NCBI GenBank assembly: GCA_012719135.1
Contig: JAAYAW010000038.1
Span: 1 to 47,394 of the forward strand
Length of the DNA stretch: 47,394 nt
Direction of reading: 5' to 3'
Source of the DNA: Chloroflexota bacterium
GTDB lineage: Bacteria; Chloroflexota; Anaerolineae; UBA1429
Shown here: positions 9,660-46,491 of the stretch, piece after piece
Position numbering within the stretch: position 1 is the first letter of the stretch
Layout: each line of letters starts with the position of its first letter
Notes under the pieces: model-generated
What the model saw: the letters and a program-made list of their open reading frames with translations, nothing else
Databases searched by the model: none
Told to the model about the DNA's origin: nothing
Made by a program: the position numbers and the translations under genes

Positions 9660-10937
9660 TTGGCACAGAGAAAACCGATGACGATGGCGCAAAAGATACT
9701 CGCTGCCCACACCGGCCGAGAACATCTCTCGGTCGGGGAACTCGTCGATGTACCGGTGGATATGGTCCTGGCGAACGACATCACCGCGCCCATCGCCATC
9801 AACGAGTTTGCCCGTCTCGGAGTCGACGAGGTCTTTGACCGGGAACGCATTGCCCTCGTGCCGGATCATTTTGCACCGAACAAGGATATCAAATCCGCCG
9901 AGCAGTGTAAGCAGATGCGAGAGTTCGCTCAGCGGTACGGAATCGTCCATTACTTTGAAGTGGGGCGCATGGGGATCGAGCATGCGCTGCTGCCTCAGGA
10001 AGGCCTCGTGCTTCCTGGCGACGTGGTCGTAGGGGCGGACTCGCACACGTGCACCTACGGCGCCGTGGGCGCCTTTGCCACCGGCATGGGCTCCACCGAC
10101 ATCGCCGTCGCGATGGCCACAGGCAGCATCTGGATGCGCGTGCCCTCCACGATCAAGATCGTCTACAGCGGCGAGCGACGTCCCTGGGTGGGCGGGAAGG
10201 ACCTCATACTCCACACCATAGGGTTGATCGGCGTCGACGGCGCCCGTTACCAGGCCATCGAGTTCTGCGGGCCCGCCATAGAGACGCTTTCGATGGATAA
10301 TCGCCTGACCATGTCCAACATGGCCATCGAGGCGGGGGCCAAGGCCGGGATGTTCGCTCCGGACGCGATCACAGAAGCCTACGTATCCAGCCGGGCCAAG
10401 AGGTCCTGCCGGCCGACCTGTGCGGATGCGGATGCCGAGTACGAGAGGGTGATCGAGATCGACGTCAGCGCGATCGAGCCCACCGTATCATTTCCACACC
10501 TGCCCAGCAACGCCCGCCCGCTGAGCCAGGTGGGCCAGGTCAAGATCGATCAGGCGGTCATCGGTTCCTGCACCAATGGCCGATGGGAGGATCTGGTACA
10601 GGCCGCGGAGATCCTCAAGGGACGCCAGGTGCATCCTGATGTGCGCTGCATCGTCATCCCGGGCACGCAGGAGATCTATCTGGAGGCGGTGCGGGGAGGC
10701 CTTGCAGAGACCTTTGTGCGTGCTGGAGCGGTGTTCAGCACACCCACATGCGGCCCCTGCCTCGGGGGCTACATGGGGGTACTAGCCGCCGGGGAGCGGT
10801 GCATATCCACCACAAACAGAAACTTTGTGGGGCGTATGGGTCATGTCGATAGCGAGGTGTATCTGGCAGGTCCGGCCATCGCCGCGGCGAGCGCCGTCCT
10901 GGGCTACATTGGCGGCCCTGAGCAGTTGGGCCGCTGA
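9660..10937 (+). CDS. leuC: 3-isopropylmalate dehydratase, large subunit
   Basis: This aconitase-family subunit isomerises 2- to 3-isopropylmalate with LeuD, and can act on citramalate as well. The 425-aa protein carries the three [4Fe-4S] cysteines in GSCTNGR and PTCGPCLGG, and the substrate motif [11 protein letters not shown]. Its length is that of the archaeal/short bacterial type. The chosen start is TTG 9660, which has GAGGGGAGG six bases upstream; ATG 9678 is an alternative that would drop six residues. Its partner leuD is not adjacent: thrC lies between them. Confidence 0.93.
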
Positions 10938-10954
10938 CCATCCGGGAGACAGAA

Positions 10955-12292
10955 ATGGCATACGATTGCTGGCTGCAGTGTGTCCGTGATTGCTCCGGCC
11001 GGTTCCCGGTCACCGACGTGATCTACCGATGCCCGGCATGCGGCGGACTGCTCGAGGTCCAGCACGACATGGCTGCCCTGAGCGAGCGAAGCGGGGAGCA
11101 GTGGCGAGCGCTGTTTGACGGGCGCACCCGCACAAACGACTGGCCGTACGGCAGCGGCGTGTGGGGCAAAAAGGAGTGGGTGCTCCCGCTGGTGGATGAC
11201 GAGCACATCGTCTCGATGTACGAGGGCCACACCAACCTCTTCTGGGCGCGGCGACTGGGCGCCGAGGTTGGTGTCGAGGACCTGTGGGTCAAGCTGTGCG
11301 GGAACAGCCACACCGGCTCCTTCAAGGATCTCGGTATGACGGTCCTGGTGAGCGTCGTGAACCAGATGATCGCAAGCGGCTCACCGGTAAGGGCTCTGGC
11401 CTGCGCAAGCACTGGAGACACATCGGCAGCCCTGGCGGCCTACGGGGCCGCGGCGGGCATTCCCACGATTGTGTTTCTGCCCAAGAACAAGGTGTCTGAT
11501 GCACAGCTGATTCAGCCGATCGCGAACGGCGCTCTGGTGCTCGCGCTGGACACCGATTTCGACGGTTGCATGGCGCTCGTGCGGGAAGTCACCAAGGACA
11601 AGTCTCTCTACCTGGCCAACTCGATGAACTCCCTTCGCATAGAAGGCCAAAAGACCGTGGGGATCGAGATTGTGCAGCAGTTCGACTGGCAGGTGCCGGA
11701 TTGGATCGTGATTCCGGTCGGGAACCTCGGCAACATCTCCGCGCTGGGCAAGGGATTTCTGATGATGCGAGAACTGGGCCTAATCGATCGGTTGCCCAAG
11801 CTCGTGGCCGCGCAGGCCGAACAGGCGAACCCCTTCTACAGAAGCTTCCAGAGAGGCTTTGAGAAGCTGGAGCCGATGCATGCCGGAGAGACGATCGCCA
11901 CCGCCATCCAGATCGGGAATCCCGTGAGTTACGAAAAGGCCGTCCAAGTGATGAGTCGTTTCGAGGGCTGCGTGGAGCAGGCCAGCGAGGATGAGATCGC
12001 CGATGCCTCGGCGCGTGCCGATCTCACAGGGATGTACGCGTGCCCGCATACTGGCGTGGCGCTCGCCGCGCTGTTCAAGCTGATCAACCGCGGTGTCGTT
12101 CGCCCACAGGATCGGGTGGTCGTCATCTCTACGGCGCACGGACTCAAGTTCAGCACGTTCAAGACGGCCTATCACCGGGACGCGCTCTCGGGGATCAAGG
12201 CGAGCCGCCAGAACCCGCCGGTGGAACTCGCCGCCGACGCACAGGCCGTGCGGCACACCATCCAGCGGTTTCTGGATGGCCAAAGCCAGTGA
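10955..12292 (+). CDS. thrC: Threonine synthase
   Basis: ThrC converts O-phosphohomoserine to threonine using pyridoxal phosphate. The 445-aa protein starts with a putative zinc ribbon (Cys5, Cys9, Cys13, Cys26, Cys29), seen in the short plant/archaeal-like class. It has the cofactor lysine Lys124 in GSFKDLGM, and the phosphate-binding region is IPVGNLGN. Threonine is the classical isoleucine precursor, but no threonine deaminase lies in this window. The gene sits between leuC and leuD with only 17 and 20 bases on either side. Closely related fold-type II enzymes exist; the N-terminal ribbon and SHTGSFKD favour threonine synthase. Confidence 0.9.
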
Positions 12293-42524: not shown

Positions 42525-43187
42525 ATGTCCAACGCTATCGATCTGGTGACACTGCGGGAACCTTCGTCGACGCTCAGCGAGGCATACCGGACACTCCGCA
42601 TGAACCTGCAGTACGCGACGCTGGATCGTTCGCTGCATTCGCTGGTGCTCACTTCTCCCGGTCCGGACGAAGGCAAGTCCACCACGCTCTCGAACCTCGC
42701 CGTGACGATGGCCCAGGTAGAGCGCCGGATCCTCATGGTGGATTGCGATCTCCGGAGGCCACGTCTCCACGAGATCTTTGGGCTGGAGAATAGCGTCGGG
42801 TTCACCACCATGATGCTCGACGATGCGATGCTGGATTCGCCACCGATCGTCGAGACGGGAGTGGAGAACCTTGCCTTGCTTCCCAGCGGCCCATTACCGC
42901 CCAGGCCTGCGGACTTGCTTGGCTCTCTGCGCATGGATGCAGTCGTTGAGCGTCTACTCAAAGAGTACGACATGCTGCTCTTTGATGCGCCGCCCGTCGT
43001 GGGTGTAACGGATGCGATCGTACTGGCGACAAAGGTGGATGCAGTTCTTCTTGTGGTGAGCGCGGGGGAGACCAAGAGAGAACAAGCGCAAAGTGCCATC
43101 GAACGACTTCGCGCCGTGAACGCCCACATTGTCGGATCCGTGCTGAACAACGCACCGATCACGGCGTCGCTCAGTTCGTACTATTAG
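42525..43187 (+). CDS. BY-kinase (tyrosine autokinase, CpsD/CapB-like)
   Basis: This 220-aa cytoplasmic P-loop protein controls polysaccharide synthesis in homologous systems through tyrosine phosphorylation. It has Walker A GPDEGKSTT (Lys51), Walker A' MVDCDLRRP, Walker B LLFDAPPV and the family segment EAYRTLRMNLQYA. The C-terminal tyrosine cluster is minimal (LSSYY), shorter than usual. A strong AGGAAGGGAG site precedes the ATG. The partner activator is the Wzz-like gene upstream. Alternatively it could be a ParA/MinD-like ATPase, but context favours a BY-kinase. Confidence 0.87.
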   Translation: MSNAIDLVTLREPSSTLSEAYRTLRMNLQYATLDRSLHSLVLTSPGPDEGKSTTLSNLAVTMAQVERRILMVDCDLRRPRLHEIFGLENSVGFTTMMLDDAMLDSPPIVETGVENLALLPSGPLPPRPADLLGSLRMDAVVERLLKEYDMLLFDAPPVVGVTDAIVLATKVDAVLLVVSAGETKREQAQSAIERLRAVNAHIVGSVLNNAPITASLSSYY

Positions 43188-43208
43188 GTTTGTTGGTGAG
43201 ATCTCTGA

Positions 43209-43249
43209 GGCTTCCCAGCCCGACCGTCAGAAGGTCAGGCTGGGGAGCC
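43209..43249 (+). terminator. Terminator after the BY-kinase gene
   Basis: A 17-position stem (43209-43225 with 43233-43249) has one mismatch and one G-T pair, closing the exopolysaccharide transcript just before the DnaA-box region. Confidence 0.7.
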
Positions 43250-43274
43250 CTTGTGTTAGCTAGCCCACAATGCC

Positions 43275-43617
43275 TGTGGAAAACCCCTTGATTACCTGTG
43301 GATAACTGTGGATAAGCACCCCCGTGATCCCAGGCTCCTTACCGCCCACAGAGAGGGCCCTCAGCACGCAAACACTCTATATAGTAGCCACGCGCTCCCT
43401 CTATACTAGATGTACGTCAGTGTGCCGGTTCAGCTCCTGTTTGCAGAGAATAGTTGTCCACCGCGTTTCCCACAGATACTGTGGATAAAAAAGCACCTCT
43501 AGTGGGCGCCGTCCCTCCCCCTCAGCCCACATCTTGTGCTTCCCGGTGTCTTTTCCACATATCCACAGGGCCTACTACTACGACTACAATACATATAGAG
43601 ATGGAGATAAAGATCTA
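43275..43617. other. Candidate replication origin (oriC-like): DnaA boxes plus DnaA-trio/unwinding module
   Basis: Three exact DnaA boxes TGTGGATAA occur at 43297-43305, 43307-43315 (10 bases apart) and 43480-43488, with variants at 43275-43283 (TGTGGAAAA), 43551-43559 (TTTTCCACA) and 43559-43567 (ATATCCACA). Directly after the last box come GGGCC and then CTA CTA CTA CGA CTA CAA (43572-43589), i.e. GAT-type DnaA-trios on the other strand, followed by AT-richer sequence. This order (box, GC-rich, trios, AT-rich) is that of the basal unwinding system known from Bacillus. No gene is seen in this gap. It is not next to dnaA or dnaN within the window. A DnaA-controlled site is the alternative. 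Confidence 0.72.
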
Positions 43618-46491
43618 CTAACTCTGAACACTCTCGGAACGGTCTCGGTCAAAACGCTGTGGATCGAGCCAGCGTTGCGCAAGCGTGGGCAAAGAGGCGA
43701 CGGGCCCCATGCGGGCTGTGCAGGGAGGAAGCGCGCGGAGGATCGTCTTGCCATAGTTCTTGGTGATCAACCTCTTGTCGAGAACGGCCACCACTCCATA
43801 GTCCTCCTGGCTGCGGATCAGGCGTCCGAAACCCTGGCGGAAGCGGAGAATCGTTTCCGGAAGATAGTACTGGTTAAAGGCGTCATCGAACGTCTCTGAG
43901 CGTGCGGTAAGGATTGGGTCATCGGGTACCGCGAATGGCAGGCGCACGATAATCAGGCAACTCAGTGAGGGCCCCACGACATCAACGCCTTCCCAAAAGC
44001 TCCGAGTGCCCATGAGGACCGACTTGGGCGTCGTTCGAAAGCTCTCCAGGATCTGCCTTCTGGATCCATCGATCCCCTGCCCGAGAAGGATGAGACCTTC
44101 TCTCTCAAGAGCCTGTCGAACGGAACGATAGGTCGTGTTAAGTTGGCTATTGGAGGTGAACAGCACCAGGGCACGACCTTCTGTCGCCTGTACCAGGTCC
44201 ACGATGGCCTGCTCTACGCCCTTTTGGTAGTACGGCTCGTTTGGCTCTGGGATGTCCTTTGGGACGTACAACAGCACGGCGGACTGAAAATCAAAGGGTG
44301 AATCGATAGAAACGTGCGCGGGCTGTTCGAGCCCCAACCTGCCTTCGATATAGCGGAACTCTTGGTCCGTTCGCAAGGTTGCGCTGGTGAGGATGACACA
44401 CTCTTTCTCACTGAACAGCCGCTCATTGAGCAGGTCGCCCACGTGGATCGGCGCGCTGTGCAGGGCGATCTCCTGGTTGTACTGCGAGACGGAGACCCAG
44501 TACACGTACGTATCGGTGGGATCCACGAGGATCTGGGCGATGCCGTGGCACATCTCTGACCCGCGCTGTAGCGCCGTCTTGACCTCAAGGAGCAGATCGG
44601 TTCGCAACTGGTCATCGTCATCGGGAAGACGCGATATCCAGGATGACAAGGAGTCGAGTTCCTGTACGATCCTCCTGAGCGGCGTCACGAGGTTATCGGA
44701 TGCAATCTCTATGTCAGACCAGCCCGGTTGGATCCGCAAGCCAGGAGTGATTCGAATGGTTCGATCGTAGGCCCTCTGAGATGCCTTGGCCGATTCCTGA
44801 AACTCGTCGAGGAACTGTGTCAGGGTTCTGAACAGCCCGTCCAGATGTGCCATGGCGCTATCGATGAAGTTGCGCAGTCGCTCTATCTGATCCGCCACCG
44901 GCTGCCTCGTCGCATCGCTCAGTTCGTAGGCATCAAACAGTGCCGGGATCTGTCCGAGTAGGCCAGAGGGGCCGCTTACGCCCGGTTGGCTCAGGGTTCC
45001 CAGGAACGCGGCCACGTCCTGCCGAGCGATCTCCAGGCCGAACTGGTTCGTCGCCTGTTCTTCAAGGTGGTGCGCCTCGTCGACTATGACATAGTCGTAA
45101 TCTGGCAGAATCCGACTCTCTAGAACCAGATCTGAGAGCAGCAGGGCGTGGTTCACAACGACGAGATGCGCGCGCTCCGCTCGGCTTCGCGCACGATGGA
45201 AGAAGCAGCGGCCGCCCGAGTGATAGGGGCAGCGGTCCCCCAGGCAGGTCTCGGGTGTCGCTTGCAGTTCTCTCCATACTTCGTGCTCAGAGTTGATCAG
45301 CAGCAACTCGCTCTGATCGCCCGTCCGGGTCTTGGGGAGCCAGGACATCACCTTCGCCAACACTCGTACCCCTTCTACGGAGAGCTGGCGACTGCGCCGG
45401 AAGGTCGACAACCTGCGCAGACAGAGGTAGTTGCCGCGACCCTTGAGTAAGGCTGCGCGAAAGGGCTGGATCAATATCTGTTGGATGCCAGGGATATCCT
45501 TTGTATAGAGTTGGTCCTGCAAGTTTATGGTATTGGAGGAGACGATGACGCGACGCTCGTTCTGGATGGCGAACTGTATGGCGGGCAGCAGGTAGGCGAG
45601 CGACTTGCCTGTGCCCGTCCCTGCCTCGACCAGGAGATGCTCGGGTGTGTTGAACGCGTCCACAACAGCCCGAAGCATCTCGATCTGTTGCGGGCGATGC
45701 TCATATCCGGGGAAGGTGCGAGCCCACACCCCACCTGGAGAAATGGCTGAAACAAGCGGCTCTGGATCGATCGGAATGGTCTCCGTAGAGGGAGAGAGAG
45801 GAACGGAATCATCGGACTCACGAGGAAGATGGGCGAACTCGCTGTCTCGCGTAGCACGAACTGGTCGAGAGCCGGAGAGCATGCCTTCTCCAGCCCGCGC
45901 CATTCGATCCTGGAGTACGTCCTGCAGCAGCGGCCATAGAGACCAGCCGGCCGCCTGCCCCATGGTCAGGATCTCGCGCAGTAAGGCAACATCCCAATCA
46001 TCAAAGCGCCGAACCATAGCGCTGAACAACTTGTGTGTGGCGAGCGCGTCCGGGAGGGCGCGGTGCGCATGAGGCAGGTCGATCCCCATCACTTCCGAGA
46101 GCGCAACCAGACTGTAGGTGTTGGCCTCCGGAACAAGGATTGAGGCCAGCTCAAAGGTATCCAGCGCAACGTTCTGCAGGGGAAGGCCCTGCCGTTGCAG
46201 GAACTGAAGATCCGTGTCGATGCTGTGAGCGACAAGGGGATGGTTCGACACGAACCGGAGCAACTCACCGCGGAGTTGCTCCAGCCTGGGAGCATCTGCG
46301 AGCGCCTCACCGGACAAACCGGTCAGTTGATGAATGCGAGGCGTTACCGGGCGCTTCGTATGCACCAGGCTGGTGAAGGTCTCCAGCACCTCGTCGCCAC
46401 GGAACCTCACCAGAGCAATCTCGATGATCTCATCGCGCTGCCGGTCCAGTCCGGTCATTTCCAGGTCCAGCGCTACATAGATTCGCGGCAT
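43618..46491 (-). CDS. dinG: DnaQ-like exonuclease fused to DinG-family DNA helicase
   Basis: The 957-aa protein starts with a DEDDh 3'-5' exonuclease domain (residues 1-165; LDLEMTGL, HSIDTDLQF, HRALPDALATH). It continues with a superfamily 2 XPD-like helicase: Walker A GTGTGKS (Lys296), DEAH at 471-474 and WEGVDVVG with GFGRLIRS near the end. Cys357, Cys416, Cys421 and Cys429 lie where XPD/DinG enzymes hold a [4Fe-4S] cluster. This exonuclease-helicase arrangement is known from other bacteria. It probably unwinds and trims DNA during repair or replication. Its stop codon lies directly next to the origin-like region, and transcription runs toward it. Confidence 0.9.
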   Translation of the reverse strand: MPRIYVALDLEMTGLDRQRDEIIEIALVRFRGDEVLETFTSLVHTKRPVTPRIHQLTGLSGEALADAPRLEQLRGELLRFVSNHPLVAHSIDTDLQFLQRQGLPLQNVALDTFELASILVPEANTYSLVALSEVMGIDLPHAHRALPDALATHKLFSAMVRRFDDWDVALLREILTMGQAAGWSLWPLLQDVLQDRMARAGEGMLSGSRPVRATRDSEFAHLPRESDDSVPLSPSTETIPIDPEPLVSAISPGGVWARTFPGYEHRPQQIEMLRAVVDAFNTPEHLLVEAGTGTGKSLAYLLPAIQFAIQNERRVIVSSNTINLQDQLYTKDIPGIQQILIQPFRAALLKGRGNYLCLRRLSTFRRSRQLSVEGVRVLAKVMSWLPKTRTGDQSELLLINSEHEVWRELQATPETCLGDRCPYHSGGRCFFHRARSRAERAHLVVVNHALLLSDLVLESRILPDYDYVIVDEAHHLEEQATNQFGLEIARQDVAAFLGTLSQPGVSGPSGLLGQIPALFDAYELSDATRQPVADQIERLRNFIDSAMAHLDGLFRTLTQFLDEFQESAKASQRAYDRTIRITPGLRIQPGWSDIEIASDNLVTPLRRIVQELDSLSSWISRLPDDDDQLRTDLLLEVKTALQRGSEMCHGIAQILVDPTDTYVYWVSVSQYNQEIALHSAPIHVGDLLNERLFSEKECVILTSATLRTDQEFRYIEGRLGLEQPAHVSIDSPFDFQSAVLLYVPKDIPEPNEPYYQKGVEQAIVDLVQATEGRALVLFTSNSQLNTTYRSVRQALEREGLILLGQGIDGSRRQILESFRTTPKSVLMGTRSFWEGVDVVGPSLSCLIIVRLPFAVPDDPILTARSETFDDAFNQYYLPETILRFRQGFGRLIRSQEDYGVVAVLDKRLITKNYGKTILRALPPCTARMGPVASLPTLAQRWLDPQRFDRDRSESVQS

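Follow-up and report, generated by a model that had tools for sequence, protein, structure and literature searches.

A candidate chromosomal replication origin with a DnaA-trio unwinding module and a second conserved motif in an Anaerolineae bacterium

In E. coli, oriC lies away from dnaA, its DNA unwinding element (DUE) adjoins the DnaA boxes, and sites for IHF and Fis are found between the boxes. For the basal unwinding system (BUS), a rule has been formulated: a DnaA box with up to two mismatches and, within 16 bp of it, an unbroken series of three or more trios whose middle base is A (PMC8287927). As for origins separated from both dnaA and dnaN, the oriC of Synechococcus lividus PCC 6715 in DoriC 10 is a DnaA-box cluster far from either gene (PMC6323995). 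A search of the literature returned no characterised origin from the class Anaerolineae (Chloroflexota). Here, we describe an intergenic spacer at positions 43,188–43,617 of a contig from a member of this class and, judging from comparative sequence analysis, we are highly confident that it represents the chromosomal replication origin (oriC) of the host. Throughout, the window is this entire contig of 47,394 nucleotides, belonging to an assembly of 101 contigs and 2.64 Mb.

The spacer separates two convergent genes. Its left neighbour, reading towards the putative origin, encodes a BY-kinase-type P-loop ATPase (42,525–43,187, forward strand; Pfam AAA_31/CbiA) and is preceded by a gene for a Wzz-domain protein, while the right neighbour encodes a DnaQ-type exonuclease/DinG-type helicase (43,618–46,491, reverse strand; Pfam RNase_T, DEAD and Helicase_C_2). 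Gene positions and Pfam domains agree with the initial annotation of this DNA, which had named a BY-kinase and a helicase as neighbours. Database comparison of the helicase gave its best matches in Chloroflexota and Anaerolineae genomes. Between the BY-kinase stop codon and the first DnaA box there is a strong stem-loop (43,209–43,249); the RNA fold of 43,195–43,262 reaches −36 kcal/mol with a z-score of −4.4. A T tail was searched for at this stem-loop and not found, and the predicted structure is probably a terminator shielding the origin from read-through. No Rfam family matched the spacer.

We called DnaA boxes at no more than one mismatch to TTATCCACA and weak boxes at two mismatches. The left group consists of a one-mismatch box (TTTTCCACA, 43,275–43,283) and two exact boxes (43,297–43,305 and 43,307–43,315), all on the reverse strand; a pair of boxes spaced by approximately 22 bp at the 43,297 site recurs in relatives. 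Two weak boxes on the forward strand (TTGTCCACC, 43,454–43,462, and TTTCCCACA, 43,466–43,474) are followed by a third exact box on the reverse strand (43,480–43,488). Finally, a tandem pair on the forward strand, reading TTTTCCACATATCCACA, is formed by the boxes TTTTCCACA (43,551–43,559) and ATATCCACA (43,559–43,567). Our recount at 43,275–43,567 gives the same six boxes, three of them exact, in 293 bp as had been reported initially. Such intergenic clustering is far beyond chance: the maximum of six boxes per 300 bp compares with at most three in 200 first-order Markov sequences of the window's length, and 5000 shuffles of the spacer yielded no more than two. Only 13 exact boxes exist in the 2.64-Mb genome, three of which belong to the spacer, and the pattern TCCACA-N(0-8)-TACTA, describing a box joined to CTA repeats, occurs once in the genome, namely in the spacer.

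Directly after the second tandem box comes a GC spacer, GGGC (43,568–43,571, forward strand), and then the putative DnaA-trio repeats CTA CTA CTA CGA CTA (43,572–43,586, forward strand), the trio strand being the complement, 3'-GAT-5'. Past the repeats, the DNA has a G+C content of 33–35%. The predicted DUE (43,572–43,621), which reaches the end of the helicase gene, is the least stable 50-mer of the window, with −55.4 kcal/mol as compared to −61.5 kcal/mol for the next region when all window 50-mers are ranked. The succession noticed earlier, in which the last box is followed by GGGC(C), CTA units and AT-richer DNA in the Bacillus order, is therefore borne out by the sequence, and the arrangement described by the BUS rule is present in the window as box ATATCCACA, 4 bp, and CTA CTA CTA. 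Among relatives, an unbroken series of three or more strict trios is seen in G005, G010 and G011; elsewhere NGA units interrupt the series, with the period of three kept. Of the 60 repeat units counted across the 12 genomes, 59 end in A; at the central position, 41 units have T and 19 have G. The latter are CGA or TGA, so that on the trio strand C often takes the place of the central A. The trio strand would consequently read 3'-[GA][AC]T-5' rather than strictly NAN, and we regard this variation, as read from the alignment, as a small departure of the family from the published rule (PMC8287927).

We infer that binding, melting and initiation at the spacer follow the homologous Bacillus system (PMC6669920, PMC8287927). 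DnaA would bind the left box group (43,275–43,315), the middle box (43,480) and the tandem pair (43,551–43,567), the distant boxes raising local DnaA. From the tandem pair, DnaA would load as a filament across GGGC onto the trios of one strand (43,572–43,586), and this filament would stretch the trio strand and melt the adjoining AT-rich DNA (approximately 43,572–43,621), where the helicase would be loaded to start bidirectional replication. The DnaA protein of the organism has domains I, III and IV and the box-binding signature RDHTTVLYG, which matches consensus boxes. On contig C65 of the same genome, a DnaD-like gene (PF07261; L018, 9045–9740, forward strand) stands directly before a gene for a DnaI/DnaC-like ATPase (9771–11,099, forward strand); the latter protein, 442 aa long, carries two tandem AAA+ domains, each with a Walker A motif, which is an unusual architecture for a helicase loader. 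We would only suggest that this pair could supply helicase loading.

The same boxes might be read as a DnaA-titration or reactivation site of the datA/DARS type, which merely sequesters or recharges DnaA. Box clusters devoid of an unwinding module do exist in these genomes, for example a conserved pair with 21-bp spacing beside an ADP-ribosylglycohydrolase gene; yet the spacer holds the genome's only box+CTA module together with the weakest DNA of the window, a skew switch coincides with the module in relatives (see below), and elsewhere in the genome no exact box has more than one further box (up to one mismatch) within approximately 500 bp. With the unwinding module, the least stable DNA and the skew minimum all in one place, pure titration, one of the options considered initially, seems very unlikely, and the origin reading is preferred. 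The box pair just mentioned deserves a comment of its own. On contig C23 of our organism (L019, 3009–3040), and also at L202, L182 and L181, a conserved group of DnaA boxes approximately 21 bp apart, with a promoter-like TTGACA alongside, precedes an ADP-ribosylglycohydrolase gene, a mandelate-racemase-like gene or both; four family genomes have such a group. They could represent a DnaA-regulated promoter or a titration site.

Conservation of the spacer in relatives had been proposed as a check of the origin reading. The module is shared by 12 of the 15 family genomes (G000, G002, G004–G011, G013 and G014), the other three (G001, G003 and G012) being uninformative, with the module locus absent or broken in the assembly. 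Its usual position in the family is between the BY-kinase gene and DinG, and in nine genomes it comes directly after the BY-kinase gene. The two are approximately 1 kb apart on one contig in G014; the G006 contig with the BY-kinase gene terminates at a box; and in G009, the left neighbour differs, while DinG keeps its place on the right, with a PCMT gene in between. An alignment of the 12 loci demonstrates that the tandem box pair, a GC spacer of 3–4 bp, the period-3 CTA/CGA/TGA repeat and the AT-rich DNA are all kept, and that the spacer outside the module is strongly diverged. Some family origins are up to 6 kb from DinG, and a scan of 1.5 kb downstream of DinG misses several of them; likewise, an exact pattern made of the box pair and CTAC proved overly stringent across the family, matching three relatives only. 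In the other Anaerolineae genomes examined, the surroundings of DinG yielded no box cluster, hence the BY-kinase/DinG position looks family-specific. As a side observation, the end of contig C33 and the start of contig C6 of G009 overlap by approximately 116 bp inside the origin, so the assembly break at oriC in this genome can be joined.

Another proposed check, the GC skew, also speaks for the origin. Each of the nine contigs on which it was measured shows a change of sign at the module, from negative on the left to positive on the right, and the right-minus-left difference over 5 kb is positive throughout (mean +0.096, background sd 0.036). Having genes in common, these contigs do not count as independent observations. 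The coding-strand bias of the convergent flanking genes would be expected to push the skew in the direction opposite to the observed step. The cumulative minimum lies 0.2 kb from the module on the 157-kb contig of G010 and 1.2 kb from it on the 126-kb contig of G009; for G007, G008 and G011, whose contigs are shorter, the distance is approximately 0.5 kb or less, which brings the contigs with a nearby minimum to five, and G000, G002, G004 and G013 show a local skew minimum at the module. For a same-type origin from another family (G047), the skew is −0.032 versus +0.057 over 200 kb on each side, and 16 kb separate the minimum from the module. Within the window, the minimum at the module is local only: the 43 kb to the left are mixed, with a net skew of +0.011, and just 3.9 kb extend to the right, making the skew within the window alone uninformative. 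This want of a net negative skew on the left is the weakest point of the origin case. Together with conservation, the switch in relatives nevertheless supports the first option of the initial annotation, i.e., the chromosomal origin of this lineage.

Neither dnaA nor dnaN is on the contig of the window: dnaA is found on contig C46, where infC and a gene for a SpoU methylase are its neighbours, while dnaN and recF are on contig C52, with a perfect parS 1 kb from dnaN. The initial annotation had remarked that origins usually flank dnaA or dnaN, but a separate location is in itself not unusual, as the case of E. coli illustrates. S. lividus is a second such case (PMC6323995). The distribution of the three loci over different contigs, as well as the ParA-like fold of the BY-kinase, might be taken to mean that the spacer is the origin of a second replicon, a chromid or a plasmid, holding this contig. 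We consider this extremely unlikely. The genes of the window include ilvD, ilvB, leuA, leuB, thrC, pheA, nadA and enolase, among them genes for making branched-chain amino acids, threonine, phenylalanine and NAD, and those window proteins that were searched included no plasmid initiator. In G010, moreover, the module shares its 157-kb contig (C12) with parS, dnaN and recF, which are found together at 61.5–64.8 kb, 83 kb from the module; EF-P adjoins the origin there, and dnaA is absent from the contig.

A parS site is normally located near an origin. The perfect parS on C52 may hence suggest that the true origin resides at an ancestral dnaN-recF-rsmG-parS locus, or else beside dnaA on C46, and that the spacer is an old or secondary site. 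However, the C52 stretch contains only two isolated one-mismatch boxes and the dnaA stretch of C46 two boxes 4.6 kb apart, none of them exact, and in G010 the dnaN/recF/parS group is 83 kb inside the negative-skew arm that ends at the module. We find this scenario hardly credible and keep to the spacer as the chromosomal origin.

How dnaA and the origin came to be apart is hinted at by G038. Its contig C36 carries EF-P, DinG, SpoU, rplT, infC, thrS and dnaA; the origin comes immediately after dnaA and is approximately 9 kb from DinG (gene names were read from translations, and DinG and dnaA were located by tblastn). In the family of our organism, dnaA retained infC and SpoU, whereas the origin retained DinG, along with EF-P in G010. 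Comparison of the single block of G038 with the two parts seen in the family induces us to suppose that an ancestral block was split and dnaA parted from oriC; such a rearrangement, deduced from few genomes, probably separated dnaA from the origin in this family.

Finally, we would like to draw attention to a second element of the spacer. A constrained motif search without a prior pattern, run on box-masked spacers (11 from the family plus G017) after a similar pattern had been spotted by eye, returned GCACAAGATATGGG with a log-likelihood of 114.8, as compared to no more than 72 on random contig pieces. The motif is present in 11–12 of the 12 origins and, depending on the variant, is 45–90 times denser there than in the flanking contigs. 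Scored with a PWM that rests on few sites, the window has its highest value of 21.1 at the best copy (GCACAAGATGTGGG, 43,526–43,539, reverse strand), followed by a copy at 43,403–43,416 (ATACTAGATGTACG, forward strand; 13.8) and a weak one at 43,374–43,387 (reverse strand; 10.4). When 150 genomes of the class were scanned for ACAAGATATRGGG, the exact core, 24 matches resulted, five of which were inside DnaA-box clusters of G017, G038, G047, G079 and G099 from three other families, G017 having been used in both the search and the scan. These clusters also display a box followed by CTA repeats, and further motif copies, not used to find the loci, were present within them (L234, L235, L243, L249 and L256). 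An exact ACAAGATATRGGG match on contig C27 of our organism was set aside as chance, since it falls in a coding stretch without boxes, and an enrichment of CTAG in the spacers was rejected as a separate signal because it overlaps the second motif. Judging from these occurrences, the element is a previously undescribed motif, distinct from DnaA boxes and common to predicted Anaerolineae origins. We also put forward, as an evenly balanced proposal, that this class-wide element (approximately GCACAAGATATGGG, one to four copies between boxes) serves as the target of a hitherto undescribed protein, regulatory or architectural, that binds origins and has an IHF/Fis-, CtrA- or Spo0A-like role.

The place of this origin is unusual but not unprecedented; the accessory motif is the more novel part and offers a concrete handle on a putative origin-binding factor. 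Origin-prediction tools that rely on proximity to dnaA or dnaN could overlook the spacer. The locus provides an anchor for metagenomic ori/ter growth-rate estimates and for contig ordering in the group, and it allows the DnaA-trio model to be tested in a deep, uncultured phylum. Besides, the contrast between families with the origin by dnaA, by tsaD or by BY-kinase/DinG makes the relative movement of dnaA and oriC traceable.

Returning to the known systems, no consensus-box cluster was found in G024, the one relative with a closed genome. The other Anaerolineae origins, beside dnaA (G038 and G099), beside tsaD (G047 and G079) and in G017, share with the spacer the box clusters, the succession of box and trios, and the second motif, and differ from it in the neighbouring genes. 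E. coli oriC has different neighbours and different DUE repeats, and the second motif described here is unlike the IHF consensus. The origin of S. lividus, in turn, is cyanobacterial and uses the species-specific box TTTTCCACA; our spacer is likewise far from dnaA and dnaN. The closest likeness is to the BUS of Bacillus subtilis oriC (boxes #6/#7 and trios; PMC6669920, PMC8287927): tandem boxes, a short GC spacer, CTA repeats and an AT-rich element follow one another in the same order and polarity, and an additional box group is located upstream in both. Unlike in B. subtilis, the spacer is not beside dnaA, its family has CGA and TGA units among the trios, and an extra conserved motif stands between the boxes.
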